From positions 6,084 through 27,957 of IMG/VR virus record IMGVR_UViG_3300002231_000813: a DNA stretch of 21,874 bases. One strand, given 5' to 3'. The DNA comes from a virus. Numbering within the stretch: position 1 is the first letter of the stretch; every line of letters begins with the position of its first letter. This document shows positions 1,761-19,180 of the stretch, piece after piece. The translations under genes and the position numbers were made by a program. The notes beneath the pieces were generated by a model, which ran no database searches, was not told the origin of the DNA, and was given only the letters and a program-made list of their open reading frames with translations.

Positions 1761-2213
1761 TTAAGTTAGGCCAAGACCCCAGGTTTCACCATTGAACCTG
1801 AGAACCTCACCCCTATTTTTGCCTACATAAGAAACATGAACCCAGCCAGACGATGGATCATCACTACTGTAATGTTCCAGAACAAGCTGATCAAATTCTA
1901 AGTTATCGGATATCCATGACGCCAACTCAAAGTTGGGCACCCCGGGTATCTCTATATCCGCAGCCTCACCCCTTATGTGCTGACTCTCCGGGCTCGATCC
2001 AATTTCGTTATTGAGTATAAGGGATCTGTACCCAGACGATGGACTGAATGGCACACCAAAGGCTGCACGGACGGGCTCCAGTATAGCACTACATAGTTCC
2101 TTCAAGTTGCCCACCTCCACAATTCCGGGCTCATTCGGAATCCCCCTGCGGAGTGCTGTAGAACTCTTGGTTAATTCACTTAGGGTAAAGTGCTCAGAGA
2201 GCCTCACTCCCAT
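1761..2213 (-). CDS. Endolysin, peptidase M15A-like
   Basis: This is a 150-residue zinc peptidase of the M15 (D-Ala-D-Ala carboxypeptidase or L-Ala-D-Glu endopeptidase) type, which cuts peptide bonds of peptidoglycan. It opens with the family's HFTLSEL segment (8-14). It then has SGYRS (60-64), SQHIRGEAAD (77-86) with zinc ligands His79 and Asp86, LEHY (112-115), and WVHVSY (124-129) with His126 as the third ligand. Length is normal for a single-domain phage enzyme. There is no signal peptide, so it needs a holin for export. ATG 2213 overlaps the end of the polyvalent gene by 10 nt and is preceded by GAAGAGGA. The holin-like and spanin genes follow immediately. Confidence 0.88.
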   Translation of the reverse strand: MGVRLSEHFTLSELTKSSTALRRGIPNEPGIVEVGNLKELCSAILEPVRAAFGVPFSPSSGYRSLILNNEIGSSPESQHIRGEAADIEIPGVPNFELASWISDNLEFDQLVLEHYSSDDPSSGWVHVSYVGKNRGEVLRFNGETWGLGLT

Positions 2214-5200
2214 CCAGCGATCATCCTCTTCAGCGTGGGCACCATCTTGAGTGCTTCCTTTTCCATTTCATCCAGCTTGTCATCCATCTCCCTGGTCAGG
2301 GTATTGTTGCGGAACGCCTGAGATCTAGCCTTCCTTATCTTGGACAGCCGCTTGTCGATAACACCAACAGCCTTCCTCGCAGACAGAAGCTCGCGATTGT
2401 CCATGATTAACTCGGCTGCTCTCTCCGGGTCATCACCCTTGGCCTGATTGATTGCCTGGACAACACCCCTGACAGAACTCCTAATATCATAGAAGTCATT
2501 CTTCAGGCCGGGGCCATAGGCATCCTTCACAAACCTCCGAATGATCGGAAGGTCTGTAAGCCTGGGGGCTGGGCGCGTTGGCATGTCGGGGATACCCTGC
2601 CTCAACATGAAATCTACTATCTGGATACCCCATATCCCGACACCACCAAAGATAGTCTTCATCGTGTTATCTATCTTCTTTGGGCTCAAGCCAGTCATCT
2701 TGCCAGCAAGGATGGCCTGAGCAGTGGTCGAGTCACCAAACTGTTCACTGGCTTTCATGTTCTCTTGCCAGTGTGGAACGATTGGATTGCCAGTAAATAT
2801 ATTTTGATTTGCAAGCCACTCATACAGTGGCCGGAGCGCCTGCGGGAGAGGGTTGAAGTTGAGGGTGGAACCTACGTGATGCCAGAAGGACTCGAAAAAT
2901 TCCTTGGAACTGGTCCCGCTCCTGCCGTCCGAAAGCTGCCCCATTATCAATCTTGTAATCATCTCAGGAATAGCCTTCCACGCAACACCGGCCTCAAACG
3001 GGATAGGGATAGACAGCCATCTCTTGTCTTCAAATGTAATGGGGATCAGCCAGTTGTTTTCACGTATCTCGCTGGGTATGTTGTCCCAATCTTCGTCCAT
3101 CTCAGACATGATCGCATACAGGGCGGATATAGTTGATACGGTCATCGCCCTATTGATCATAACCCTCTTGGTTGCATCCGGGTTCAGCCTACCCGTGATG
3201 CTGTTACCCATAAGCGATCTTGCCATAACACCCAGGCCCTGCAATCTGGAATTCAAGAAGGGTACAGTAGCTGTAACAAACTTGACGAAACCGTTGTTAC
3301 CCCTTCGACTAAAGTTAAGAACCTCAATCGCTTGGTTCGCCGCCTCGCCCATGGCCTTTCTCTCAGCCACATTGATACCGTTGCTATCGACATAGTTAAA
3401 TCCCATGTCGCTGTATTTCTTGAGAGCGTGCTGGTATGTGGTCTCGTAAACATTTTCCCTGGTCGCAGACTCAGATCTGGAACTCATCTCTCCGGTAACA
3501 TCCCAGAGCTTGGTCAAGAGGCGACCTACCCCACTCCCCTCTCCAGTCTTCCTGGCGAATCTGTTCGCCAACCTTTCCGGGGTAAGCTCTGCCTGCTCAA
3601 CACCGCTAACAACACCGAGCCTCTGAAGAAGGGTATACGTTTCGTTCGCTTCACCCTTTGGCATCTTCGCAAGGTTCTTTGTCATCGCCTTGCTGGCATC
3701 TATAATTGGAGTCGATTCACCACCGTTCAATATATATACGTGCATCGAGTCTCTCAGCATGTTAGCGATGAGATACTCGGGTGATCGTGTAACGAGGCCA
3801 CGAAGTACCCTGGCTGGCATACCCATATGCTCCATCCATGGACTGATACCGTCGAACGCTCCGACCATAGCCTCATGGAACAGCGGATCATCTAGCAGGA
3901 AATGCCTAGGCTCACCCCTATGTCTGACTGTAACCATCCGGCCCCTGTCGGAAAATCCCAGCTTGGACCTGTCTGAAGACCTGACTTCTTTCGCAAGCCC
4001 CAACATAAGGGCATCCCTGATCGCGCGCTGAGAAGCAATATTCTGCAGGCTTGAATGGATGGCCGCCTTAGCATTCTTAGTAATAGACTCAATGGGATTC
4101 TCAAACTCAGCACCCTCTCGGATACCCTTGAATTTCCTGGAGGGATTTTGATTTGCGATACCTCCAGCCAGGAACATTTCGTCACGCCTGCCCAACTCCT
4201 TGAGCATCACATCTTCGATAGCGTCTGTCGTTGTGTCCTCAAGGTTGAGATAGAAAGGAATGTAGTCAGAGTATTTCCTGTACACATCCCCCATCTCCTT
4301 AGTGATGAGGCCAGCATCAACTTGTAGCTGTATGATCCCCTCATTCCAATTCTGCAGGTTCTGCGCAACAACTACTATCTCAGGATTATCCTTGGCCACC
4401 TCAAATCCAGCCTCGATAGATTCCTTACTAAGGCCAGAAGACCTACCCTCCCTGTCGAGTCTGTACCCACGAAGCGCTCTCATGTACAGCATTAGTTCGG
4501 GTATAAGATTCTTCGATGGGGTCGCCAGAGCTTCAAGCATCGGGAACATGCCACCCGTCTGACCCTCACTGTAGAGATCCGGTATGGAGATCAGATCGCC
4601 ATCAACAAGATCGCCCGTGGTGGGGTCGATGACCTTAGCCCTGGCTTCCGTAACAAGCTTAAGGGTTTCGACCATGGGGACTCCATGTCGGTAGGTCAAG
4701 ATCCCGTCCCTCATGGATGAAGCAAGCAGTGACTGGGCCTTGTCAGACATAAGCGCCATTGAGTGGGCTGACACATCCGCAAGGTCATGCAATCCCTCTA
4801 GTCCCAGCTTGGAAGCCTTCTCCCTTGCCCACTCCCCGTAACGCTCAATCCTCTTGAATCTGTTCATGGTCATCGCAGTCCACTTATCAATCATGGACTT
4901 ATCGGTAGACCTCAGCGCCTCACCAAGGGATCCCCACAGGGTTCTCATGTTCTTCGTGCGAGACCGACCGAGGACCTGCTCCATCGCCTCCCTCACCTTC
5001 GGAGGCCGTCCCTCATAAGAATCGACTGCGTGCCTGCGGCGATCTGAATCACCGAACTTGCGTGCATTGCCCGGGTTCAAGAAGGTCTTAACGGATTCAA
5101 CGCTGGCATCAGGACCATGCAGATGACCAGTTTTATTCCTCCTGCTACCTCCAACTACGGAGAAAGTATCCGTAGGATAAGCAGACACAAGGTAGGAAAC

Positions 5201-7075
5201 ATCCCCCAACCCCTCCTTGCTTGCATTTACTGTGTGTATGAGGATGTTGTCTGCCTCTGAGCTTGGATCATTCCAAATATATGAAACGCTACCTGGCTCA
5301 GCGTATGGGGTAATCTCGCCTGTCTTGACCTTTGCGGGGAAGTCTCCCATCGCCCGCGAGAATGACATGACAAGCTCCTGCCAATTCCCGTAAGGCGTAA
5401 GATCCCTTATCTTGTCGTTGTGACTTTCGATATGGCTAGCGCCAAAGCCACGCTCCTTGATCTCTGAATTATCCGGGGCGTACTGTGCGGGCTCATGGTG
5501 CCCGGAAAGAACTACGAGAGGCATACCCGATTCGGATGATTGCCCATTGGCATCAAAATTGACCCTGAACCAAGAGGCGTTTCCGACAGTCGAATCACCC
5601 TCGGGAGTGTTGGGCGGCACGATAACATCAAACGCCGACTCCTGGACTTCGGTACTAAACGGCTGACCGGAAAGAACCTCCCTTTCAATACCCATGGGGA
5701 TGGCTGGGGCATGTTGAAATTCCAGCGTGCCCCCTGGACCGGTTGTCCTCCACGGTCGGCCAAGATCGCGGCCCTCCGTGAGGGACGGGTCTGTCCTCTC
5801 CGGATCCACGTAGCTTTTCCTGTCACCGTACATGACAAAATTTCTAGTTGCATCCTTCGCCTTGTGGCCAAGGCCCCTGCTATTTCTATCAAGAAATTGA
5901 ACCCCCGGGATGCCCTCGGATTGCAGCGCTTGCGAAGCAAGCATCTCGCTATACTTATATGCGATACGGAGCACGGCATCCCTGCCAGTCCTGGGGCCAT
6001 CTTCCGACATAACCGTCTCGGTCCCGTAACCAATCTGAGACTCAACATCGTACATATTGTTCTCAACAAGTTGCCTGTAAATAACTGGGAAATCCTTCTG
6101 GATTGGCCCCAGCCACCGCCTAACATCCGCAGGTGTAGCAATTTCCGGATTGAGACCATCAAGGAATACTTCGGACAACTCCCTAGCAAAACTTATCCCC
6201 GGCTCATCTATCCCGATGGAATTACGAATACCCCTCTCATAGTCAAGGTCCGCGTCTTCGGATATAGCCAGTCCGTACTTAGAAGCGACACTCTCCAGTG
6301 CCTTCATAACCTTATCGCTCTGATCAAAGAGCGGGGCATCCAGGTCAAGTAGATCTTCTCTATTTACATCATGGATCAGCCCATACACCGAGGGGGTTCC
6401 GCGAGCCCTCCTTACCTCCAGATTGTTGAAGTCGAAATCGCGGATGAATCTGTGGGCAGCACTCCTTATCCACTCACCGTCAGGACTCGCATCGGCAATC
6501 ATTGGCGGGATTAAGTTCTCAAACCTAATCATAGATTCTTCGTATTCTGAGAAATTTCCACCCTCAAATTCCCCCGGAGGCCTACCGTACTCAGCACCCG
6601 TAATACCCTGCCTGCTGCCCACGATGGCATCAAAGATCGAATCTCTAGCCAGCGACAGTCTCTGCAGGGCGGGACCCCTCATGGATACGTTCGGTACACC
6701 GGAAGCCTCCTGCCTCAGGTATGCGTTGATGGAATCTCGAAGAGAGGAATTACTATACTCCGCAAAATATCTATCCTTCAGGGGGCCATAAGCCTCGATG
6801 TTGGAATACCCGGAAGCAACCTCCCTGTCTTCGGCTGAATAGAGGCCAAACGTATACGCCTGAGTGCCTTCACCCATGCCAACCCTTGTCTCATCCGGCC
6901 TGAGGACGCCACGATCATCAACCGTCCACTCCGAGGGGCTGCCCGTGTACGCATCAAGGGATGCCCTGGCTCTATCGTTGGCACGATTCCTAATGTCTGA
7001 TAGATCAGAATCAGAAGACTCCCCGCACCCTCCCTGCTGGATGCCTCGGATAGCGAAGCCCGCTCTCTCCTCCAC
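2204..7075 (-). CDS. Giant polyvalent protein: ART-like, nuclease-like and LPD38-like domains
   Basis: This is a 1623-residue frame from GTG 7075 (GGGAGG 5 nt upstream). Residues 41-418 look like the ADP-ribosyltransferase-like domain of phage polyvalent proteins: AYTGSP (42-47), GEGTQAYTFGLYSAED (68-83), DLDAPL (244-249), GIPGVQFLD (388-396) and TRNFVMYG (410-417). Residues 522-645 (GFGASHIESH at 543-552, then a helix and strands) resemble the phage Barnase/EndoU/RelE-like nuclease domain. The C-terminal two thirds match the LPD38-type region: RSPEYLIANMLRDS (1097-1110), VPFLNSRLQG (1271-1280), WLSIPIPFE (1353-1361), GNPIVP (1429-1434). Such proteins are thought to be packaged and ejected with the DNA. 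A ParB-like domain expected at the N-terminus sits just upstream in another frame (7021-7425), so this start may be internal to a longer gene. Domain names are from motif memory only. Confidence 0.8.
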   Translation of the reverse strand: MEERAGFAIRGIQQGGCGESSDSDLSDIRNRANDRARASLDAYTGSPSEWTVDDRGVLRPDETRVGMGEGTQAYTFGLYSAEDREVASGYSNIEAYGPLKDRYFAEYSNSSLRDSINAYLRQEASGVPNVSMRGPALQRLSLARDSIFDAIVGSRQGITGAEYGRPPGEFEGGNFSEYEESMIRFENLIPPMIADASPDGEWIRSAAHRFIRDFDFNNLEVRRARGTPSVYGLIHDVNREDLLDLDAPLFDQSDKVMKALESVASKYGLAISEDADLDYERGIRNSIGIDEPGISFARELSEVFLDGLNPEIATPADVRRWLGPIQKDFPVIYRQLVENNMYDVESQIGYGTETVMSEDGPRTGRDAVLRIAYKYSEMLASQALQSEGIPGVQFLDRNSRGLGHKAKDATRNFVMYGDRKSYVDPERTDPSLTEGRDLGRPWRTTGPGGTLEFQHAPAIPMGIEREVLSGQPFSTEVQESAFDVIVPPNTPEGDSTVGNASWFRVNFDANGQSSESGMPLVVLSGHHEPAQYAPDNSEIKERGFGASHIESHNDKIRDLTPYGNWQELVMSFSRAMGDFPAKVKTGEITPYAEPGSVSYIWNDPSSEADNILIHTVNASKEGLGDVSYLVSAYPTDTFSVVGGSRRNKTGHLHGPDASVESVKTFLNPGNARKFGDSDRRRHAVDSYEGRPPKVREAMEQVLGRSRTKNMRTLWGSLGEALRSTDKSMIDKWTAMTMNRFKRIERYGEWAREKASKLGLEGLHDLADVSAHSMALMSDKAQSLLASSMRDGILTYRHGVPMVETLKLVTEARAKVIDPTTGDLVDGDLISIPDLYSEGQTGGMFPMLEALATPSKNLIPELMLYMRALRGYRLDREGRSSGLSKESIEAGFEVAKDNPEIVVVAQNLQNWNEGIIQLQVDAGLITKEMGDVYRKYSDYIPFYLNLEDTTTDAIEDVMLKELGRRDEMFLAGGIANQNPSRKFKGIREGAEFENPIESITKNAKAAIHSSLQNIASQRAIRDALMLGLAKEVRSSDRSKLGFSDRGRMVTVRHRGEPRHFLLDDPLFHEAMVGAFDGISPWMEHMGMPARVLRGLVTRSPEYLIANMLRDSMHVYILNGGESTPIIDASKAMTKNLAKMPKGEANETYTLLQRLGVVSGVEQAELTPERLANRFARKTGEGSGVGRLLTKLWDVTGEMSSRSESATRENVYETTYQHALKKYSDMGFNYVDSNGINVAERKAMGEAANQAIEVLNFSRRGNNGFVKFVTATVPFLNSRLQGLGVMARSLMGNSITGRLNPDATKRVMINRAMTVSTISALYAIMSEMDEDWDNIPSEIRENNWLIPITFEDKRWLSIPIPFEAGVAWKAIPEMITRLIMGQLSDGRSGTSSKEFFESFWHHVGSTLNFNPLPQALRPLYEWLANQNIFTGNPIVPHWQENMKASEQFGDSTTAQAILAGKMTGLSPKKIDNTMKTIFGGVGIWGIQIVDFMLRQGIPDMPTRPAPRLTDLPIIRRFVKDAYGPGLKNDFYDIRSSVRGVVQAINQAKGDDPERAAELIMDNRELLSARKAVGVIDKRLSKIRKARSQAFRNNTLTREMDDKLDEMEKEALKMVPTLKRMIAGWE

Positions 7076-7425
7076 GCACTCCTCCCACTCACCCTGGAAG
7101 CGGGGGCAGACCTCAGGTCTTCGACCGGAAAGGGGATCGAATTTCTACCGTCCTGACCAACGAGAGTCTCTGGCCAAGCTCCGGGCACCATATTATCGGG
7201 ATCATTCTGCGCATCCCATCTAATGGCTGGGCCAATATTATTATCCTCCAAAGATCTAAATTCTACGGGGATAGACTCCACCCCCTCCTCCAGCAACGCC
7301 ATGGCTCTATGTCGGCCCTCATGACCCACAACCGTCGCAGTTCCGTCACCATCATTCACAAAGCCAATATAGGGAACAGAGCTAAACTTAACCCGACGCC
7401 TCACCCTACCCCTGGCACTCGTCAT
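7021..7425 (-). CDS. ParB-like (DdrB-like) domain segment in a shifted frame
   Basis: ATG 7425, with GAGG 6 nt upstream, opens a frame that stays open to 6778 (215 residues). Only the first ~135 residues look genuine, and the rest is a shadow of the polyvalent gene. Key features are SSVPYIGF (15-22), GHEGRHRAMAL (34-44), MVPGAWPETL (79-88) and IPFPVEDL (97-104), the pattern of the ParB-like domain of phage polyvalent proteins, plus a terminal RERASLSE linker. The domain's expected opening (HISPQAFLDIS) is at the end of the upstream 1411-residue frame. Its expected continuation is in the 1623-residue frame, reached by a -1 change near the G4 run at 7021-7024. It is probably the middle of one interrupted gene, and a separate small gene is possible. 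Confidence 0.6.
7049..7065. repeat. 17-bp direct repeat, left copy
   Basis: The plus strand reads GATAGCGAAGCCCGCTC, identical to 7554-7570. On the minus strand it encodes ERASLS at the end of the ParB-like segment. Confidence 0.85.
7080..7086 (-). promoter_or_regulatory. Ribosome-binding site before GTG 7075
   Basis: The minus strand carries GGGAGGA ending 4 nt before GTG 7075. It supports an independent start of the 1623-residue protein. It also lies inside the ParB-like reading frame (codons for SGRS), so it may be fortuitous. Confidence 0.45.
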
Positions 7426-10400
7426 GCTTTTCCTCAATCCGCCCATCGTTGGAGATATCCAAAAAGGCCTGTGGAGAAATGTGAATGATGGTGGAGCGAG
7501 ATCTTGGCTTATCGGCCTCAGTGCTGCGCAATGCGTCGTTAGAGAAGTTATCCGATAGCGAAGCCCGCTCCCTTCCGCTTCTTTCCTTGCGCTCCTCCTT
7601 CCTCTCGTCAGCTTCAGCTTCAGCACGCTTGGCGGCAGCCTCTAGGGCGATATCCAGGCCAGCCTCACTGCCCACTGTACCGGCAATGCCACCGAACTCC
7701 CTGGCGAGTTGTGTATCTACCTCTTCATCCAACTCTGCCTGAGTTTTACTCTTACCAGTACGCGCCAGCTTGTACTCAAGCTCACGCCTGCGGACATCCT
7801 GCGCCTTGGTCAGGGCCTCTCTTCCCTCACCCAGACTCCTGGCGGCATCAGCCACCTCACCGGGTCTCCGGGACCACCAAAGATCAAGGGCTCTACCCCC
7901 TTGGATCCTTGTTGCCATCTGGTCGCCATAGAGGTTGGCGAATACATCCTCTGCACTCTTGTATCCCTGGCCGGTCAGGGCCCTCCCGATACCCTTGATG
8001 ACATTGGCAGACCTGAGCAAAAGACCCTTAGGCTGACCGGCGATATTCGCTTCACCCGAAGAATAGTCCTGGTATAGCTGAGCTACAGCCTCCTCTACAT
8101 AATCATCCTTGATGAATTTGAGAGAGTCCTCCCTTGCTATGCCCTGCTCGTACTGCTCCTGGGTTATCTCACCAGCCTCAAGGCTCTCCTTGAGTGAATT
8201 GATCTGGTCAATCCTGTTACCCATATCAGAATAAACTGTGTAGGCATAATCCAGGTAAGTAGAACCCTTCTTAAGTGGGCCCTTCCCTCTGTTGATCAGC
8301 CTGTCGTTGATCTGCTCAAGGCGCTTGTCTGAAATCTTCTTCTTGGAGACATACTTAGTAAGAGACTTCCACTCGATAGCCTTGATTACATTCAGCTTCC
8401 TGAAGACATGAATTGTCTCATGGTTGACGAGAGGTATGAGCCTTTTTACAATTTCCTCCGCACTCTCGATACCCTGCAGCGACGGGTCATAGGCAAGGGT
8501 TATCAGATTGCGCGTATCGTCAAACGTCGCACTCGCACCCTTGGTCTCCAGGCTCTCAGATATCTTAACCTGCACATCATCAAGACCAGTTCCCTTGAGG
8601 TACCTACGCAGGGAGGTTACTATCTTCTCAAGTCTTTCACTTGCACCATCAGGTGCCTCGGGCATGTTGAGACCCGGCTCCAGGGTAGTTACGGGTATCT
8701 CCCTGAGTTCCGGATCAGGGACTGCACCCCTAGCAATCTCAGCCTCGGAGAGAAGCCTTCTCCCCTCCTCGGTGGTTTCCTGGTCGGGCCTAGCCCTTAC
8801 ACCAAGCCTCCCCCTGACAGACTCGCGGCCAACCCTTGCGTGCTGCGTCTTATCCTTGACACTATTCGCAGCCTTCTCTGCCCTCTCAATTAGGCGGGCC
8901 TCTTCCTTGTCAAACCTAGCCTGGGTTATCTCACCCCTATCCAGGCGTTTCTGCAAGGCTTCCTGTTCACGGGAGTAATCAATAAACTCAAGAACTTTCT
9001 CCTTGGAAGTGGTGCCATCTCTATCCAGGGAAGTTTCGGATACCTTGAATCCAACCTCCCGCCTGAAGCTAAGGCCTGAACCAACCCCAACGGAAGATAC
9101 CTTCACATCCTTCATGTAGGATTTTGCGAAGTCCTTGGCCCGCTGTACCGACTCTTCTATTACAAGGCCCTCATCGAAGACCCCAACACTTAGGGCCTTC
9201 AGAACAGATGCTTCTTTCCGGTCCCTTATAGTTGTTTCCTGGGCTACCAGGAACGCTTTGGCCTCTTCCTTGGTACTGAACCGACCAAGCCTAGTCCCGT
9301 CCTTGGTGACATCGTAGGCGTATGTGTTTTGGTCTGCGTTTTTCTTGTAGTCCAGAGCCTTCTTCCTGGACTGAAATATTTTTACAACGGAACCGAGCTT
9401 ATCCCTGACAACCCAAGAACGGGACTTATCCGACCTCTCCTTGTGTGACACATTATAGCTATAGCTACTGACAGCCTCTGGGGATTCAAGGCCAGCAACC
9501 TCAACAACTTCCGCCACTTGTGAGGGCACTTCGTTTTCAAGGAAGCGGCTTGAACCCAACTTGGCAAGGAGGAGTTGATCATTGTCTGCCTGCTCTGGAG
9601 TCTTACCACCCTCCATGCTGTGGATCTCATCGCGAGCAGCCTCTGCCTCCTCCCGACTTGAGTAGAACTGGGGCCTTAGCTCACCGTTCACCTTCAACTG
9701 GAACCTGTTCTTGTTCAGGCTCTCGTCTAGGGAAAAGGGGACAAAGCGACCATCCCTCTCGGCGATGTCTAGCCTGCGAGCAGCAGCATCGCGTATGCTC
9801 TTATATACCTTACTGCTCTTTATCCCGTACTTCTTTGCCAACTTCCTTGGGGACGGGAACTCGCCAGCATCGACCGTATCATCAATGATAGAACTGTAGG
9901 TGTCTTCGCTTACCTGCGGCGGGAGAGTCTTCTTAACAAGGGAATGCTTGTCACCCTTCTTGGACCGCTCAACAAGCCTCATCGAAACCATCTTGTCGAG
10001 GACGCCCTGAGCCATCCTGTCTGACGCCTCTACTTCAATTCTGGGATTATTCAGACCGAGCGCAGACTTAATGGTTGCTAGTGAAACAGTCTTATTCTTC
10101 CTGCTCCCGAACCTCTCAGCTAGGGATATCGCCTCCTCGGCACTTGCGTACTGAAGAATGGACTTCTGCTCCTGCCTGGGCATTGCAGATATGCGGTCAT
10201 ACATAGCCCTCAGCCTTGGCTGATCTAGATCATCTAAGAAAAATGATCCCGTCATCCGCTTCGTGAAGGCTAGGAAAGCGGGGTCATCATCCCATAAAAT
10301 ATTTCTGTCTTCCGCTATCCGATGGATATCCTTTGGAGTAACCGCCTGCGCACCACCGGTTATCCTGAGGAACTGCTCCCTTAATCCACCCGTAAGCTCA

Positions 10401-11641
10401 GCAGCCCTACTTCTCCAGAAGGCGCTGGTCCTGGGCTGCGCGTCTTTGTCAGCAGCATCCGACTCGATTAACTCAGCCGCCCTCCGGGCCTCGTCCTTTT
10501 CTATTGCCTCCATGATCTTGGGGAGTTCTCTTGCGATCTCTGACTTCTTACGCTCCCCAAGGAGCTTCTGGTGCTGGGAATACTTGGCACTCGCTGCACC
10601 AACCCCGCCGAAGCCAGCAGCGGGGAACAGGGTCGCGAAGGCTATCTCTGCATATTCCTGGGCTGCTTCCTGATTAGCGGGGCTAACCTCAAGGCCAGCC
10701 TGCCACCTCTCAAGGGCCTGCTGTCCGATCTCAGCCACCTCCTCCTCTGCCAGCGTGGCAAGGAAGCGCTTCACGGGGGTCATATCGTCTATCTTTTCTA
10801 TCAGGTTGCCTAACGCAGCAAAGCCCGCCCTCTTAACGGGCTCCTTGACGGCACTCAGCGGTGCGGCAATGATAAAGCCAAGACTATCTAGGGCGGCCTG
10901 AGCGCCAGACGCAACTATTGTTCGTCCTATATTTACATCCTTGGTATCAACGAGGCCCTCTTCGTAGGAGCGCTCAAGATCCTCGGACATATACGCAGCC
11001 ATGCTGGCCAACGTCATACCCGCAAAGCCGCCGATCTTCGCCCCCAGCGGGGAGGTCAGCGGGGCGAGTGGGCCACCCAACATACCCAGACCGGCACCAA
11101 CCGCAGCACCCGCAGTGCCACCCGCTAGGGCAGACGGGGCCATGCGACCCATGCTGGAACCTATTTGCTCAGCACCAAACTCAAGGCCGGTACCCACGGC
11201 GGAGAGTAACCCCTCTTCCTCGTAGGCCTTTGTAATGTCCTCAGTTCGCAGAAGTCCAGGCGCTTTAGCCTGGGAACGCCTACTGGCCTCGGCTACCTCG
11301 GCTTGGTATCTATCATAGGCTTCCTCATCTCCTGAGATCGCAGCCCCCATGGCCTGCACCCCGGGAATAGTCCCCTCTACGGTCCTCTGGAACGTCTGGG
11401 AAAAGGCGTCCAGGGGGCCGGAGTCAACATCGGGCTTGGCCACCGCGAATGCCTCGGGGAACCTTTCCCTAGCCTTGGCCGTAGCCTCCTCATCAGACAT
11501 ATCCTTACGGACCATCACATGGCTGCCGTTCGGGAGGAAGAATCGTCTCCTCTCTTCCTCCTCCTGCGCGCCACGACCCATCGGAACCGGGGATACTCCG
11601 GCTCTAATTCTAAGTGAGTTTAGGTACTCCTCGGCTGTCAC
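7406..11641 (-). CDS. Polyvalent or internal virion protein with HExxH metallopeptidase domain
   Basis: This is a 1411-residue protein starting at GTG 11641, which shares one base with the stop of the upstream gene. The N-terminal 160 residues are charged. Residues 167-217 and 241-264 are Gly/Ala-rich and hydrophobic, resembling the membrane-inserting parts of ejected phage proteins. Residues 435-490 (DIHRIAEDRNILWDDDPAFLAF) fit a helical unit common in polyvalent proteins, and 591-620 is helix-turn-helix-like. Three short modules with F/Y-x-S/T-R/K-E/K-E-A signatures lie at 645-670, 726-766 and 773-801. A zincin-like peptidase spans about 1000-1245: NHETIH (1073-1078) gives the HExxH motif and EEAVAQL (1183-1189) a likely third ligand. 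The tail (RERASLSD, then HISPQAFLDIS at 1387-1397) looks like the opening of a ParB-like domain cut off by TAG at 7406. The gene may therefore continue into the next two frames. Confidence 0.8.
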   Translation of the reverse strand: MTAEEYLNSLRIRAGVSPVPMGRGAQEEEERRRFFLPNGSHVMVRKDMSDEEATAKARERFPEAFAVAKPDVDSGPLDAFSQTFQRTVEGTIPGVQAMGAAISGDEEAYDRYQAEVAEASRRSQAKAPGLLRTEDITKAYEEEGLLSAVGTGLEFGAEQIGSSMGRMAPSALAGGTAGAAVGAGLGMLGGPLAPLTSPLGAKIGGFAGMTLASMAAYMSEDLERSYEEGLVDTKDVNIGRTIVASGAQAALDSLGFIIAAPLSAVKEPVKRAGFAALGNLIEKIDDMTPVKRFLATLAEEEVAEIGQQALERWQAGLEVSPANQEAAQEYAEIAFATLFPAAGFGGVGAASAKYSQHQKLLGERKKSEIARELPKIMEAIEKDEARRAAELIESDAADKDAQPRTSAFWRSRAAELTGGLREQFLRITGGAQAVTPKDIHRIAEDRNILWDDDPAFLAFTKRMTGSFFLDDLDQPRLRAMYDRISAMPRQEQKSILQYASAEEAISLAERFGSRKNKTVSLATIKSALGLNNPRIEVEASDRMAQGVLDKMVSMRLVERSKKGDKHSLVKKTLPPQVSEDTYSSIIDDTVDAGEFPSPRKLAKKYGIKSSKVYKSIRDAAARRLDIAERDGRFVPFSLDESLNKNRFQLKVNGELRPQFYSSREEAEAARDEIHSMEGGKTPEQADNDQLLLAKLGSSRFLENEVPSQVAEVVEVAGLESPEAVSSYSYNVSHKERSDKSRSWVVRDKLGSVVKIFQSRKKALDYKKNADQNTYAYDVTKDGTRLGRFSTKEEAKAFLVAQETTIRDRKEASVLKALSVGVFDEGLVIEESVQRAKDFAKSYMKDVKVSSVGVGSGLSFRREVGFKVSETSLDRDGTTSKEKVLEFIDYSREQEALQKRLDRGEITQARFDKEEARLIERAEKAANSVKDKTQHARVGRESVRGRLGVRARPDQETTEEGRRLLSEAEIARGAVPDPELREIPVTTLEPGLNMPEAPDGASERLEKIVTSLRRYLKGTGLDDVQVKISESLETKGASATFDDTRNLITLAYDPSLQGIESAEEIVKRLIPLVNHETIHVFRKLNVIKAIEWKSLTKYVSKKKISDKRLEQINDRLINRGKGPLKKGSTYLDYAYTVYSDMGNRIDQINSLKESLEAGEITQEQYEQGIAREDSLKFIKDDYVEEAVAQLYQDYSSGEANIAGQPKGLLLRSANVIKGIGRALTGQGYKSAEDVFANLYGDQMATRIQGGRALDLWWSRRPGEVADAARSLGEGREALTKAQDVRRRELEYKLARTGKSKTQAELDEEVDTQLAREFGGIAGTVGSEAGLDIALEAAAKRAEAEADERKEERKERSGRERASLSDNFSNDALRSTEADKPRSRSTIIHISPQAFLDISNDGRIEEKHDECQG
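7432..7435 (-). promoter_or_regulatory. Ribosome-binding site before ATG 7425
   Basis: GAGG sits 6 nt upstream of ATG 7425. It would allow independent translation of the ParB-like segment, overlapping the end of the 1411-residue frame by 20 nt. It competes with the view that a base was gained here by error. Confidence 0.5.
7554..7570. repeat. 17-bp direct repeat, right copy
   Basis: This copy is identical to 7049-7065 and 505 nt away. On the minus strand it encodes ERASLS near the end of the 1411-residue frame, so the two copies bracket the ParB-like module. Confidence 0.85.
9239..9709 (-). repeat. Three short F/Y-S/T-x-x-E/K-A modules inside the metallopeptidase protein
   Basis: Residues 645-801 of the 1411-residue protein contain three related units: a strand-like start (FQLKV, YSYNV, YAYDV), a turn, then a signature with F/Y, S/T, Arg/Lys and an Ala-containing helix (FYSSREEAEAA, IFQSRKKALDY, RFSTKEEAKAF). 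They look like small WGR- or SPOR-like repeats by shape only. Their role is unknown. Confidence 0.5.
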
Positions 11642-13989
11642 TAATCAATATTCCCCAAAGATGACTGACCCATGAGCATACGCAAGGCCCGATCAAACAT
11701 TAACTGAACCTCCTCCGGAGAGGGCTCCCTAGTCATAGCCTTTATCTGAGACTGAACCAGATCGGCGGCGGAGTCCCTGATCTTCCTCTTCTCCCCACTC
11801 TTAAACTGGGATATGTCCATCTCCTCCCTGAACTGGGAAAGGGCGAGTTCGAGGGCCTTATTCTGCTTGCTAACACTCAAGCTCTCGTTGAATTGCCTGA
11901 CATTTTCATTGAAGGCCCTCTCGGACTTTTCCTGATCATACTGGAAGCGAGTCATGTCCCTGGCCTCGCGCCTCCTTTCGGACTCGGAAGCGGACATTCT
12001 CTCCAGTGAACTAAGCTGATCCCGGAGCGACTGACCCTCCTGTCTTGAAGTCTCCAGGGCACCAGCCTGCATATAGGGGGCAGCGCCCTGCATACCGGCC
12101 CGGATCCCCTCACCAACGGTCCTGCCGCCCATCATACCTAAAGCAAACTGAAGCTGGGCCGCTGGCCTCCAGTCCGGACCAGACCTACCAGCAATCTGGG
12201 CTTGCAATGCCTCCATCTGGGCCACCCTCGGATCAGCCCCAAGGCCAGCCAAGTTCTTGTTGTACGCATCCTCAAAATTGAACCTTTGATCTTGCTGCAC
12301 AATATTCGGAATATTTGCAGGCCTTTGCGGAGCAACTGAATCCGGAGCCCCCGGCGGGAGCATGGGTGGCCTAGTTCCCCCCTGCTCCATAGACACTTCA
12401 AAGGGGGGTGCCGGTAACGGGTAAGAGAGATCTGTCATCATGCGAGTAGGCTCATCCTGGATAGTAATACCCCGGGCCTCCAAACTCTCCCTGTTACGAG
12501 CCCGGTCAGCAACTACACCCTCGGCACGACGCTTTATGTCCTTCTGCCTGCGCCCCCGAGGTTGACCAAACTTTTCTACCCAGTAAGGATTGTTCCATTT
12601 TTGAGCCTCAGCCCCAGCCAACCCTTCCTCCATCGCTATGCGCTCCCGCTCCGCCTCAATCGCTGGACCCACCGCAGCCGCAGCCGCAGCATCGCCCATG
12701 CCAGAAGCCGCCTCGGCCAAGCCTTCAAGCGTCTGAAGTTCCGTCGGGGAGGAGGCGTACTTACCCGGCCTCTGCGACCTGCTTGGACCCCCCTGTGTTG
12801 GGCCTCCTTGCGGTGGCATCCGTCCGGGGCGAGGGTCGTTGGTGAAGGGGATGGGAAAAGACTGCGGGAACGGGTTTGAACCCTGCAGGGGGTGGGAAAA
12901 CCCAGGTCCCGTAAATCTGCCAGAGGACGCAACTGTACCCGGACCAGACATTGAGGAGACAAGATCACCAACCCCCTCAACTGCCTGACCGGTCATATGG
13001 TCACCCAACAATTCCATATCCCCAGGTGGCATATCCTGACTATTAAAGAGCTTGGACAACAAACCCCTCTTATCCAAGGCCGGATCATACGGCGGAGCAG
13101 CGGGAGGAGGCGCAGCGCCAGCCCCAGCAGCACCCAACTGGCTCACTAGGCCACTAAGGCCACCCGTGGGACCCTGGGCTGGGCTGGGCTGCATCCCGGT
13201 CGCGGTCATCCTGTGATCTATGTTGTTAAAGCCTACACGCGGATCCATATATGGATCATACACCTCCTGAGCCACGGGGGGAGGTGAGTCGGAATACTGA
13301 TCGGGATACTGGGCCATAATATCCTTCTGGTCCTGGATTGCAGCCATCAGAGCCGCCCGCTGCTTAGGCGTCAGGCTCGGATCCTCCAACCTCGCTATGA
13401 GTCCAGCCAATCCACCATCCTGATAATTCCTAACAAGCCCACCACCGGCCATGTTCATGGGTGGACCCTGGGGCATACCGCCCCCGAGGGAGGCGAGGAA
13501 TTGCATAGGATCTTCCTGAGGCATACCGGGGGGCATCCCAGGCGGCATTCCAGGTGGCATCCCGGGAGGCATTCCAGGGGGTCCACCCTGCGGCATACCC
13601 GGGGGCATTCCCGGAGGCATCCCAGGCGGCATTCCGGGTGGCATTCCGGGTGGCATTCCCGGTGGCATTCCTTGCTGCGGACCCTGCGGCATTCCTCCTT
13701 GCAACATCTCCTGAGCGATAGTGGTCTGGGGAGGCATTTGACCCCCGCCAGCACCCCGGGACCGGATATCATTTCGCCTGGTCTTCTCAGCCAGTATTAA
13801 ATATCCGGGGGCAAGGGGACCATCGACCGGTATGGGACTATTCTCTGCACGAATAGCATTATCAAGACCCTGGTCGAGTCTTTCATCCGGCCAATTCTTT
13901 AGCTCCTCAACAAGGTCAAGGTTGGAAGCGGGCTCAACTCCCGTTGTACCCATACCAGAACCACCACCCGCTATACCAAGTCTAGCCAT
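11641..13989 (-). CDS. Structural protein with GMPP repeats and a coiled-coil tail
   Basis: This is a 782-residue protein from ATG 13989, with AAGGG 9 nt upstream and an 11-nt gap after the previous gene. After a short N-terminal segment, residues 107-162 are fourteen Gly-Met-Pro-Pro-type tetrapeptides. Next come an [13 protein letters not shown] segment (185-197), a Gly/Pro-rich pattern seen in many phage virion proteins, and a helical [12 protein letters not shown] stretch (211-222). The middle is Pro/Gly/Ala-rich and probably disordered. The last ~160 residues are highly charged and helical, a likely coiled coil. I do not recognise a named function. Position between the repeat protein and the polyvalent genes suggests an internal-virion or tail-associated structural part. 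The stop TAG shares its last base with the next gene's GTG. Confidence 0.8.
13504..13671 (-). repeat. 12-bp tandem repeat encoding GMPP units
   Basis: This is 168 bp of 14 units of 12 bp. In translation order there are seven GMPP, then GMPQ, GGPP, four GMPP and a final GMPQ. Codons vary in the third position (GGM ATG CCN CCN pattern), so copies are not identical in DNA. The unit is a tetrapeptide and thus not a collagen Gly-X-Y triplet, although the composition is similar. Such slippage-prone arrays can vary in copy number between relatives. Confidence 0.9.
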
Positions 13990-14000
13990 TATAAATTCCC

Positions 14001-14510
14001 TTACGCACCCTGCTGCCCGCTATTATTAAAGATGTTCCCAATCGCACTCGCCCCAAAGCCGAGACCAAGAAGCTCCGAAATCGGAGAGGGGCCGGGTGCC
14101 ATGTTATATTGCTGCTGTTGCGCAGGGGCCCCGGAGTAAATGCCCTGCAGCCAGTTAAGCTGATCACCGGGATAGTTAACCCTTCTCATGTATGTCTCAT
14201 AAGCCATATCTAGGACATTCTGATCAAGCTCTCTCCTTGAAGCCCCCGCACGCTGGAACTCCCTGAGTAGATTCAACTGCCGCTGGTCATAAAGCTGTCC
14301 AAGGTCTGCTCCCAGGCCAGCCTGCTGCGCGTATGCACCGCCCTGCTGCATCGCAAACTCCCGGTCAGCCTGATCTGCCGCTAGGGCCAACTGTGCATTG
14401 CGGAATTGGGCATCATCCCCAAGCCTGTCTGCCTCAAGCTCAAGCGGGGAAAGTGTCTGTAGGGCTGCGAGCCCCTGCTGCCCCGCCTCCTGCAGGCCCT
14501 GCTCCCTCAA
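14001..14510 (-). CDS. C-terminal part of the giant repeat protein, in a shifted frame
   Basis: This 169-residue frame opens with TTG at 14510 and has no convincing ribosome-binding site. The frame is open further upstream, and its translation there (ADIAGRNIDYDLQGRQ) follows naturally after ETTR in the 1363-residue frame. That frame instead ends in a short unrelated tail (RILRVAI) at 14534. Residues here are Ala/Gln/Leu-rich and helical. They are followed by ETYMRRVNYPGDQLNWLQ (104-121) and a Pro/Gln- and Gly-rich end, a pattern I associate with the C-terminus of the same phage structural family as the upstream gene. A -1 change near the G3 run at 14558-14560 would join them into a 1541-residue protein. 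It is a separate gene only if the TTG is really used, which I think less likely. Confidence 0.65.
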   Translation of the reverse strand: MREQGLQEAGQQGLAALQTLSPLELEADRLGDDAQFRNAQLALAADQADREFAMQQGGAYAQQAGLGADLGQLYDQRQLNLLREFQRAGASRRELDQNVLDMAYETYMRRVNYPGDQLNWLQGIYSGAPAQQQQYNMAPGPSPISELLGLGFGASAIGNIFNNSGQQGA

Positions 14511-14533: not shown

Positions 14534-17500
14534 CTATATTGCGACCCGCAATATCCGCCCTCGAGTTGTCTCCAGGAACTGACCCTCCCTGGATCTAATA
14601 TCTGCAGCGGCCAGATCGGTGTCTGCCCCAGCCCTTTCCCAATCTAGAGCCTGTGCACCCTGGATTTGGGCAAGCTGTTCATTTAGCTGAGCAGCCTGGA
14701 TCATTGCGTCCAAACTACCTTGACTTGCAGCAAGGTTTAACCGACCAAGCTCCGCCTCGTACTGGTTCGTAAGTTCCGCTGCGCGAAGCCTGTTTGCAGC
14801 ATTGAACTGACCAGCACCAAAGGCCCCTTCGGCAGCACCCATACCCAGTCTACCCAAGAGATCAGCCTCAGCCTGCTGGGTCTGGATATTCAGGCCCTCT
14901 CGCTGGAGCGTTTGATCTCCCTGGCGGATCCGGAGTTCCTCTTGCATCTGAAAAACAGATCTCTGGGCCTCAATGCTGCCCTGATCCGCAGCTAGCTTAA
15001 GCTCTGCATACCGCGAGAGGTCATCAATATCCATTTGGGAAGCAGCGATCTTGGACTGAATCGTTGCCTGTTCACCCTCAATGCCTAGAGCAGCCGACCT
15101 AGCGCTAAACTCTTCCTCCATCTGCCTCGCAGAGCGCGCAGCATCAATATCCCCCGCCTCAGCAGCTTGCTGAAACTGGGTATACCGTGACATGTCATCC
15201 AGGGAGAACTGGACCTCACCCATGGCTGCGTCCAACGTCCCCCTGTCCGCAGCCAGACCAAGCTCAGCAGATCTAGCCTCAAACTCTTCCTGCATTTGCC
15301 TCAGAGACCTTGTTGCATCTATATCACCAAGCTCCGCAGCCTGCTGAAGCTCTGCATACCTAGCTTCGTCCCCTCTGCCAAACTCAAGACCGAACCTGCC
15401 CATTGCGAGATTCTCCAGATCGGCTCGAAGCTGCATCTCCGAGGCGCGAGCCCCAAACTCCTCCTGCATCCTCCGGGCCTCCAGGCCAGCCTCCGCGTTG
15501 CCTCGATCCGCCGCTTGGTATAGCTCGGCGAATCTAGACTTCTCCTCGTTACTCATCTGTATAGCAGCACGCTCCCGGTCCATATTGGCGAGTTGCGACC
15601 TCATGGTCATCTCACCAGCAGTCGCCCCAAACTCCAACTCCATCTGTGACGCAGACCTCATCGCGTCAATGGAGCCCATCTCTGCAGCAGTTCGCAACTC
15701 GGAATAACGAGATCTTTCATCAAGACTCATCTGGGAATACGCCCTTTGGGAATCAATATTCGCCTGTCCCGAACGGATACCAAGCTCAGCCGACCTCGCG
15801 CCGAACTCAAGCTCCAACTGCTCAGCCATGCGACCAGCCTCTATATTCCCCTGCTCGGCAGACTGCTGATATTGCGCCAACCTAGAGCGCTCATCGGTAC
15901 TTAATTCAAGGCCAAACCTGCCCATGGAAATATTTTCGAGGTCAGCCCTTAGATCCATCTCAGCAGCCCTGGACCCAAATTCCTCCTGCATCCTGCGGGC
16001 CTCTATCCCGGCCTCCACATTTCCCTGATCTGCAGCCTGGGTCAACTCGATATACCGCTGCCTTTCGGCTATATCCATCTGTACGGCGGCGCGCTCTCTC
16101 TCCATGTTTGCCATCTGGGCGCGAATGTCCATCTCCCCAGCGGTGGCACCAAAGTCTCTCTCCATCTGAGCAGCAGCGCGGCGGGCGTCGATATTCCCTC
16201 GCTCGGCAGCAGCCCTCAGTTCAGCGTACCGACCCTTCTGTTCCAGGCTCATCTGGCTCTCGGCCCTCAGGGATTGAATATTTGCCTCATCCGCGCGAAG
16301 ACCAAGCTCTGCAGCCCTGGAGCCAAACTCCTGTTGCAGTTGGTATGCCGACCTTTGGGCATCTATATTTGCCCTCTCCGCAGCCTGATCCAGGCCAGCA
16401 GCCTGAATCCCTACATCACCCCTTAGCTGAAACTCTCTCCCCGCCGACTCAACATTGGCCAAATCTGCCTGCATCGTCATTCTTGCTTGCTCAAGACCAG
16501 ACGCATCCTGCATCCGCTGCTGCTGTACGTTCGCCTCCCGATCCTTCTCGAAAGCCCGCATCCTCATGTTCGCAGCAGTTACAGCGGAAGCATCTCCCAT
16601 CTGGGCGGCAACAATCGCTGCCTTCCTGTCCATCTCGTACTGCTGTTGACCAAACTTCCAAGCGTTCGCCCTTGCTCGCTCCTCAATATCACCCATAGAT
16701 TCCGCATATCTATCAGCAGCCTGCTGGGCAACCAACTCTTGCCTATAAGACCCCCTCGATCCACGGGCAACTGCCTCGGCATCGTTTTGAACTAGAGTGG
16801 ACTGATAGGCCTCGGTCGCAGCATCCTTCTGCTGGTCAACGAGACCTTGATGGGCCGCCATGTAGGGATCTACGTATTTATTGATCGTGGGCTGATCCCA
16901 TTCACCGAAGTCCTGAGTAGCCTGCGTGTAGCCCAACTCAGAGTAGGGACCAGCCGGATCTGTCGGAGCAGCGTAATCAAAGCCATAGGTTGGTGCTGCG
17001 TACCCGGAGGTCACATCACCCAAGTTGAAGGCTGGGTCCGGGGTAAACCCAGAGGTAACAGACCCGAAGTCTTCCCGTTCCCCGGGGGCTAGGAAATCAT
17101 TCGCTGCCGCACCGAAATCAAATGTCATCTGGCGGTCGAACGGATTCGATATCATGGTCCCGAAGGGATTCGCGCCAAGCTCGGCTGGGTTGAATGGATT
17201 AACCGCCTCGGTCGGAAGTCTCGATGCAAAACCAGCCGCTCCCAGCGGGCCGCCGTATGTTTCAAAAAGGTCACCAGGACCGGAAATGGTACCCGGAGTA
17301 ATCGTACCAGGGCCAGTATAATCGCTCGCAGCAGTTTGGAGACCGGATATAGCTGTATTTAAAGCCTCCGGTGTAATGGCTTGAAACGCTGCCGGATCCA
17401 TTGACCCAAAGGGGTTCACCGTGGGCGCGGCAAACTGGTTTGCTGTAGTGCCAAAGTCACTACCCTCCTGTAGGCCCTGAGTAAAGGGGACACGATTCAC

Positions 17501-18625
17501 GCTACCCCACGGGGGCCCGGGACCCAAACCGGCCCAATATCCGCTGGGGTCGAATTCATTGGAAGCCACCGTTGAAAGCCTGTCGAGGTAACCCTGATTT
17601 GATGTCCTTGGACCATACATCATTACATCAGTGGGGCGGGTAAAGGTACCCCTGTTAATTTCTCCCGGAGCCACATACGCACTATCCGCCGTCCTGAGGT
17701 CCTGGATTGCAGCCGTAAGAGCATCCGGGGTCATTCTCTGGTAAGGGTTCGTGACACTGCCAAAACTAGCAAGGGTACCGGGGCCACCATACGCATTAGA
17801 AAAGGTCCCAAAGTCCGGTGGGTTAAGAAGCTGAGTATAGGGGTTGGTCATGTCACCAAAGGGAGCTATGACCCCAGGGTCACCGTAGGCATTTGTTACC
17901 GTCCCGAAGTTTCCCCTGGGATCTCCCGGCTGAGTGTACCCGCTTGCAATGCCCTGCGACTCCGGGAGCAGAGAAGCCATGAACTGCGCACCACCTACGG
18001 TAGACAACGGGCCCGTGTAGCCGCCAGCGGAGGTCCCGAAGTCCATCTCGGCCGGGGCTGTGTACCCGTAAGTGGCCGAAACGGGCGGCGCGAAGAACGG
18101 ATCAAGGTTGGTTGGACCGCCAAACGCATGGGTTACCGGACCGAAGCTATACGGATTTGCCGGTATGGTATACCCTCCACCCGCACCTATTCTATTATAA
18201 ATCGGGTTATCAACGGTAGCATTGAAGGTTATATCAGTGGGATTGAAGAGATTAGTCGGAACATATTCGCTAGAAACACCACCGGGAGTAAATGTCCCCG
18301 GGGCATAACTTTCACCAATAACATTCTGCCCACGCCCTATCGCATCCATCGCGTTAGTGTACGCATTCCACGCCATTGCAGTTTCGGGCTGGCCACGCTG
18401 GTAAAGATCCTCAGTGCCCTGAAAGGCTGCAACCTGGAATGGGTCAAAGCCAGCAATTCTGGGGATCGACTCACCTCCCGCAGTCTGGTAACTCGGGAAC
18501 GGCCTCAGCCTCGCCAGTTCAGTAGCCCAGCGGGCCAACTCCATGTGGGCAGGCTCCATCCAGACGGGCATATCGGAGGTATAATTAACCCCTTGACTAT
18601 AATTAGTACCACCACCACCACTCAT
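14534..18625 (-). CDS. Giant phage structural protein with eighteen 29-residue helical repeats
   Basis: This is a 1363-residue frame from ATG 18625, with GGAG 9 nt upstream and 2 nt after the GNAT-like gene. Residues 1-100 carry Trp/Pro motifs and a helical segment. Residues 105-575 are Gly/Pro/Tyr/Phe-rich, with recurring FGxVTxxY units and a duplicated helical block (299-320 and 418-440). Residues 580-690 (KYVDPYMAAHQGLVD, then GSRGSYRQELVAQQ) match a domain I associate with phage virion proteins carrying a (N/D)PY signature. Residues 724-1245 are eighteen tandem 29-residue units that are strongly helical. The frame then loses its sense after ETTR (last ~9 residues), and the family-like C-terminus continues at 14001-14510. 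A tail-fibre, tail-hub or ejection-tube role is possible, but none can be chosen from the sequence. Confidence 0.82.
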   Translation of the reverse strand: MSGGGGTNYSQGVNYTSDMPVWMEPAHMELARWATELARLRPFPSYQTAGGESIPRIAGFDPFQVAAFQGTEDLYQRGQPETAMAWNAYTNAMDAIGRGQNVIGESYAPGTFTPGGVSSEYVPTNLFNPTDITFNATVDNPIYNRIGAGGGYTIPANPYSFGPVTHAFGGPTNLDPFFAPPVSATYGYTAPAEMDFGTSAGGYTGPLSTVGGAQFMASLLPESQGIASGYTQPGDPRGNFGTVTNAYGDPGVIAPFGDMTNPYTQLLNPPDFGTFSNAYGGPGTLASFGSVTNPYQRMTPDALTAAIQDLRTADSAYVAPGEINRGTFTRPTDVMMYGPRTSNQGYLDRLSTVASNEFDPSGYWAGLGPGPPWGSVNRVPFTQGLQEGSDFGTTANQFAAPTVNPFGSMDPAAFQAITPEALNTAISGLQTAASDYTGPGTITPGTISGPGDLFETYGGPLGAAGFASRLPTEAVNPFNPAELGANPFGTMISNPFDRQMTFDFGAAANDFLAPGEREDFGSVTSGFTPDPAFNLGDVTSGYAAPTYGFDYAAPTDPAGPYSELGYTQATQDFGEWDQPTINKYVDPYMAAHQGLVDQQKDAATEAYQSTLVQNDAEAVARGSRGSYRQELVAQQAADRYAESMGDIEERARANAWKFGQQQYEMDRKAAIVAAQMGDASAVTAANMRMRAFEKDREANVQQQRMQDASGLEQARMTMQADLANVESAGREFQLRGDVGIQAAGLDQAAERANIDAQRSAYQLQQEFGSRAAELGLRADEANIQSLRAESQMSLEQKGRYAELRAAAERGNIDARRAAAQMERDFGATAGEMDIRAQMANMERERAAVQMDIAERQRYIELTQAADQGNVEAGIEARRMQEEFGSRAAEMDLRADLENISMGRFGLELSTDERSRLAQYQQSAEQGNIEAGRMAEQLELEFGARSAELGIRSGQANIDSQRAYSQMSLDERSRYSELRTAAEMGSIDAMRSASQMELEFGATAGEMTMRSQLANMDRERAAIQMSNEEKSRFAELYQAADRGNAEAGLEARRMQEEFGARASEMQLRADLENLAMGRFGLEFGRGDEARYAELQQAAELGDIDATRSLRQMQEEFEARSAELGLAADRGTLDAAMGEVQFSLDDMSRYTQFQQAAEAGDIDAARSARQMEEEFSARSAALGIEGEQATIQSKIAASQMDIDDLSRYAELKLAADQGSIEAQRSVFQMQEELRIRQGDQTLQREGLNIQTQQAEADLLGRLGMGAAEGAFGAGQFNAANRLRAAELTNQYEAELGRLNLAASQGSLDAMIQAAQLNEQLAQIQGAQALDWERAGADTDLAAADIRSREGQFLETTRGRILRVAI
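14891..16456 (-). repeat. Array of 18 tandem 87-bp (29-residue) coding repeats
   Basis: Exactly 1566 bp, or 18 x 87 bp without length variation, corresponds to residues 724-1245. Consensus per unit: N-I-D/E-x-x-R-x-x-x-Q-M, six or seven variable positions, R-A/Y-x-E-L/M, then A-D/E-x-A/G. Units pair into 58-residue repeats (eight full pairs from residue 753). Pairs group in threes: the units at 753-926 and 927-1100 correspond one to one, giving a 174-residue (522-bp) period that also shows in DNA, for example a shared CTCCTGCATCCT at 15461 and 15983. Flanking sequence has degenerate copies. Confidence 0.88.
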
Positions 18626-19098: not shown

Positions 19099-19180
19099 TT
19101 ATTTGGCCCTTCTGATTTCATCAACTGCAGCCATTAGCGAGGCCGCACCAGAATCTGTACTACCACCACCGATATCTTTT
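19099..19180 (-). other. Out-of-frame 3' end of the structural protein gene
   Basis: In the frame shifted by +1 from the upstream gene, this stretch encodes DIGGGSTDSGAASLMAAV and then DEIRRAK before TAA at 19099-19101. It fits the G-x-G-S-T-D-x-G-A...L...V-R family continuation after the PADVV motif. It is therefore most likely real coding sequence separated by a one-base change at the T4 run 19177-19180. Confidence 0.7.

Follow-up and report, generated by a model that had tools for sequence, protein, structure and literature searches.

The window analysed here is a stretch of 21,874 nucleotides, positions 6,084 to 27,957 of the IMG/VR virus record IMGVR_UViG_3300002231_000813. On its minus strand, three overlapping frames that encode parts of a polyvalent protein occupy positions 11641 to 2204. 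No RNA families were detected in the window and no tRNAs in most of the record. The IMG/VR records 3300013110_000395 (L003) and 3300013115_000607 (L004) were used as close relatives. The features are listed below in window coordinates.

7406..11641, minus strand: first 1411 codons (5' fragment) of the polyvalent-protein gene, ending at a premature stop
8408..8422, minus strand: zincin-type metallopeptidase motif HETIH (HExxH)
7551..7573, minus strand: linker DNA repeat of family D8 upstream of the ParB domain, coding for RERASLSD
6778..7626, minus strand: bridging third frame, 282 aa
7451..7483, minus strand: ParB-like first strand and helix (HISPQAFLDIS), upstream of break 1
7419..7424, minus strand: break 1, with one base more than L003 and L004 (extra base at about 7421, phase switch at 7419/7418)
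7024..7418, minus strand: remaining ParB-like domain and linker, in the shifted frame
7306..7326, minus strand: ParB-like core motif GHEGRHR
7046..7068, minus strand: linker DNA repeat of family D8 downstream of the ParB domain, coding for ERASLSE, 91% identical to 7551..7573
7021..7024, minus strand: break 2, where the coding phase returns; a homopolymer of four in DNA common to no relative found
5587..7062, minus strand: domain cassette unrelated to its counterpart in L003 and L004; contains break 2
2204..7023, minus strand: 3' fragment, again in the first phase (mechanical ORF 2204..7075, 1623 aa)
2540..3097, minus strand: LPD38 domain (Pfam PF18857, E = 4.8e-35)
14562..14569, minus strand: two one-base insertions, dividing a relative's 1539-aa gene into ORFs 14534..18625 and 14001..14510
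19104..19180, minus strand: two one-base insertions that change the C-terminus of the 19160..21874 gene compared with L004's record (phase switch at 19180)
Outside the window, about 2,960 and about 5,550 bases ahead of its base 1: a further pair of one-base insertions, breaking genes of 301 and 616 aa in both relatives

A preliminary description of this DNA had proposed that two compensating frame changes divide a single gene. Its ORF coordinates agree with ours: the frames 7406..11641 (1411 residues) and 2204..7075 (1623 residues) share one phase and are bridged by the frame 6778..7626 in another. The ORF translations likewise assign HISPQAFLDIS to the first frame and GHEGRHR to the shifted one. 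Coding signal is continuous from 11641 to 2204 on the minus strand, with two phase changes at about 7419-7421 and 7023-7024. In a codon-usage model trained on the genes of a relative, the phase changes at 7419/7418 and at 7024/7023, in each case near one of the approximate points suggested earlier, whereas the relative's version of the gene is read in a single phase throughout. Together with the single-frame relatives described below, this continuous signal supports the proposal of one gene with two frame changes.

Wherever the gene region can be aligned, L003 and L004 share 94-97% DNA identity with the window, and their flanking genes stand in the same order. In both, the polyvalent-protein gene is one frame of 2966 or 2969 codons that runs across the point of break 1. 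Apart from this unbroken frame, both differ from the window in the cassette opposite 5587-7062, and L004 also in its N-terminus. The identity of 94-97% applies outside the exchanged cassettes. The N-terminal difference from L004 (window 11480-13376) extends into parts of the preceding gene; L003 agrees with the window at the N-terminus.

More distant homologues were collected with a profile scan that returned hundreds of matches, of which 37 were examined. Among these, L003's record (there numbered L026) and L027 are close, and most others are about 30% identical. The matched region lies in one frame in all 37, and the 35 that are not cut by a contig end have 2364-3595 codons. L027 has a single frame of 3003 codons, and its C-terminal 850 residues are 60% identical. 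From end to end, the window's 5' fragment aligns with one intact frame of the relative (L021). The homologues in five cultured phages (PTXU04, D274, MinM2, CF418P1 and HTVC034P) are likewise single CDSs, of 1229-3162 aa. The comparison with relatives that had been proposed as a check thus yields a single gene in both close relatives and in all distant relatives examined.

Break 1 falls within the ParB-like domain. An alignment of this region comprises L004 and seven other relatives, and in all eight sequences a hydrophobic strand and an FL-helix are followed in the same frame by an H-E/D-GRHR core. The domain of L004 was modelled with an overall pLDDT of 76, rising to roughly 90 or above in most of the core, and break 1 maps within a well-predicted helix (residues 38-49) of this model. 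Its best Foldseek matches are sulfiredoxin, Noc, PadC and ParB (probability 0.9-1.0, E ≥ 2.8e-3), a modest similarity that supports membership of the predicted fold in the ParB/sulfiredoxin superfamily. At the sequence level, no match to the region was found in cultured phages or solved structures. The domain appears to resemble the DdrB type of phage P1 in its ParB/sulfiredoxin fold (a modest similarity, E about 3e-3), its HEGRHR core with invariant arginines and its occurrence in a phage polyvalent protein. The DdrB-like ParB family is described as having an extra helix with a conserved tyrosine and an Asp/Asn closing strand 2 (PMC5512222).

Break 2 has a different setting. In the shifted frame, the ParB domain continues into the second RERASLS linker, and the first frame resumes after the break, which is located some 39 bases into the exchanged segment 5587-7062. 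No record sharing the window's cassette was found among viral contigs, phages and plasmids, though a nearly identical independent record may exist. The cassette has no match in Pfam or NCBIfam, and its single-sequence structure model has a pLDDT of 35. Because no retrieved relative shares the cassette, we infer from the codon signal and the protein context only that break 2 has the same origin as break 1.

The cassette itself replaces its counterpart as a whole between genes that are otherwise 94-97% identical, and the exchange between the window, L003 and L004 starts in the repeated linker. The two linker copies flanking the ParB-like domain are 91% identical over 23 nt in the window and 88% identical over 33 nt in the relative. 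L027 (3602-12610) carries a different cassette in the ParB slot and has three in-phase linker repeats of 58-70 nt (79-86% identical, coding for REAAGLPEDPxRSRASMVG) that flank cassettes. The 37 genes together contain 21 internal repeat pairs, 16 of them in phase, versus zero after codon shuffling; many of the 21 resemble duplicated domains rather than linkers. A reasonable reading of these sequences is that cassettes are exchanged by recombination at linkers.

The paired frame changes are not special in this record, which has at least six other frame-breaking insertions. When the whole 27,957-base record was compared with its close relatives, seven uncompensated indels were detected in five genes, with zero uncompensated deletions: all seven are single-base insertions, at 7421, 14562, 14569, 19104 and 19180 in the window and at two positions outside it. 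In the relatives, the affected genes encode 894 (cut by the contig end), 1539, 2966/2969, 301 and 616 aa. The remaining gaps balance within a short distance, and a comparison of L003 with L004 gave one unbalanced indel, located at an alignment end. A shared direction in seven of seven indels has p = 0.016 (two-sided sign test). Over 21,798 aligned bases, the rate of uncompensated indels is about 32 per 100 kb. This is close to the published rate for polished long-read viral assemblies (22.78 per 100 kb), and short-read-based assemblies lie far lower, at < 2; PacBio errors are moreover enriched in insertions (PMC6487183). No excess of substitutions surrounds the seven insertions, so they do not lie in generally bad stretches, and locally poor sequence was rejected as their explanation.

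We consider it very probable, from these sequence comparisons, that the locus holds one polyvalent-protein gene of about 3,100 residues, which appears as three overlapping frames because of single-base indel errors in the record. In this reading, break 1 results from an extra base within the ParB-like domain, break 2 from a compensating phase change about 400 bases further on, and errors of the same kind disrupt four other genes, two of them in the window and two elsewhere in the record. The comparisons show the coding continuity, the single frame of the relatives, the one additional base at break 1 and the other insertions; that these indels are errors rather than mutations is inferred. We regard such recurrent error as far more probable than programmed frameshifting or a genuinely split gene, because seven +1 insertions separate the record from its relatives, versus the one alignment-end indel between those relatives. 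About four of the seven insertions lie outside homopolymers, which counts against error, as does the lack of excess substitutions around them.

That the indels are real, i.e. recent frameshift mutations that left the gene broken or split in nature, for example after a badly joined cassette exchange, seems unlikely. The proximity of break 2 to the exchange boundary at 7062 would fit this explanation, as would the start codons with purine-rich DNA upstream at both breaks. The 11 substitutions in the out-of-frame ParB segment are also in its favour, as they have no third-position bias (3, 4 and 4 by codon position), although they are too few to judge. Against it, five genes would have had to lose their frames simultaneously in a record otherwise under purifying selection, all seven comparable indels share one direction and the split would cut the ParB fold within a helix. 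In the out-of-frame parts of the other genes, substitutions still favour third codon positions (9, 6 and 23 in a 169-aa part; 0, 0 and 4 in the tail of the 616-aa gene). A more specific version, in which out-of-frame cassette exchange at repeated linkers would leave the lineage expressing the giant injected protein in pieces, from ribosome-binding sites within the purine-rich linkers, appears very unlikely.

An arrangement as three separate genes, with independent starts at positions 7425 and 7075, is highly improbable. The preliminary description had noted good ribosome-binding sites at both, and the strings are real: ATG 7425 is preceded by GAGGAAAAG and GTG 7075 by GGGAGGAG. They are not evidence of starts, however, as the same strings are present, or nearly so, in relatives as ordinary codons of the intact gene. 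Separate starts at these positions were rejected on this ground. Moreover, within the relatives' intact ORF a Shine-Dalgarno-like core precedes 49 internal ATG/GTG codons, so the two strings carry little weight. A start at 7425 would further leave the ParB domain without its first strand, and the single gene of the relatives contradicts three genes as the ancestral state, against which the position of break 1 inside a ParB/sulfiredoxin-like domain also argues. Programmed +1 and then -1 ribosomal frameshifting, which would fuse the three frames into one protein, accounts for phases that sum correctly and for the continuous coding signal, but we give it almost no credence: the close relatives have a plainly open frame at break 1 and need no shift, so that the frame change is not conserved and the mechanism was rejected. 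No conventional slippery sequence was seen by eye at either point, and frameshifting would be required in five genes of one record.

Restored to one frame, the protein is a new member of the phage-type polyvalent proteins described by Iyer et al. 2017 (PMC5512222). As in that class, several unrelated parts (a zincin-type peptidase motif, a ParB-like domain and LPD38) are joined in a single giant polypeptide, encoded by the frame of 2966 or 2969 codons in the relatives, near virion and lysis genes. LPD38 scores 121.8 bits over the full profile, compared with a gathering score of 27 bits. The HExxH motif occurs in 36 of the 37 relatives, with an aligned segment around it; the polyvalent protein has no Pfam peptidase match. 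Among the domains listed in the preliminary description, LPD38 (by Pfam), the zincin-type motif and the ParB/sulfiredoxin-like fold are supported, whereas the ART-like and nuclease-like assignments are unconfirmed, with no family match and the low-scoring cassette model given above. Unlike the proteins of that class, most of the present protein matches no named family.

An endolysin-type gene adjoins the polyvalent-protein gene. The LPD38-region homologue gp44 of Pelagibacter phage HTVC034P has the same position, downstream of tail tubular genes and an acetyltransferase gene within a late operon, but differs in its size of 1229 aa, its identity of 23% and in that the ParB-like motif was not found in it. 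Delivery in one piece followed by peptidase cleavage has been inferred for such proteins by Iyer et al., who also infer that their ParB domains are nucleotide-regulated DNases (PMC5512222). By analogy, the present protein would most likely be a late, virion-internal protein that enters the host together with the injected DNA, where its own putative zincin-type peptidase would divide it into units.

Most probably, then, a common sequencing artefact accounts for the apparent split, and the protein belongs to a known class. Taken in its deposited form, the record would give three false genes at this locus and several more broken genes elsewhere, and would conceal the ParB-like domain of a giant polyvalent protein. 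The locus also offers a clean example of polyvalent proteins that swap whole domain cassettes in-frame between phages almost identical elsewhere, some of the cassette boundaries carrying near-repeated linker DNA, which can be tested in populations; the words linker, shuffling and frameshift are absent from the text of PMC5512222. In a 782-aa gene, an imperfect 12-nt tandem repeat (coding for PGMP-type units, window 13503-13706) was observed, with a length difference of 12 nt compared with the relative.
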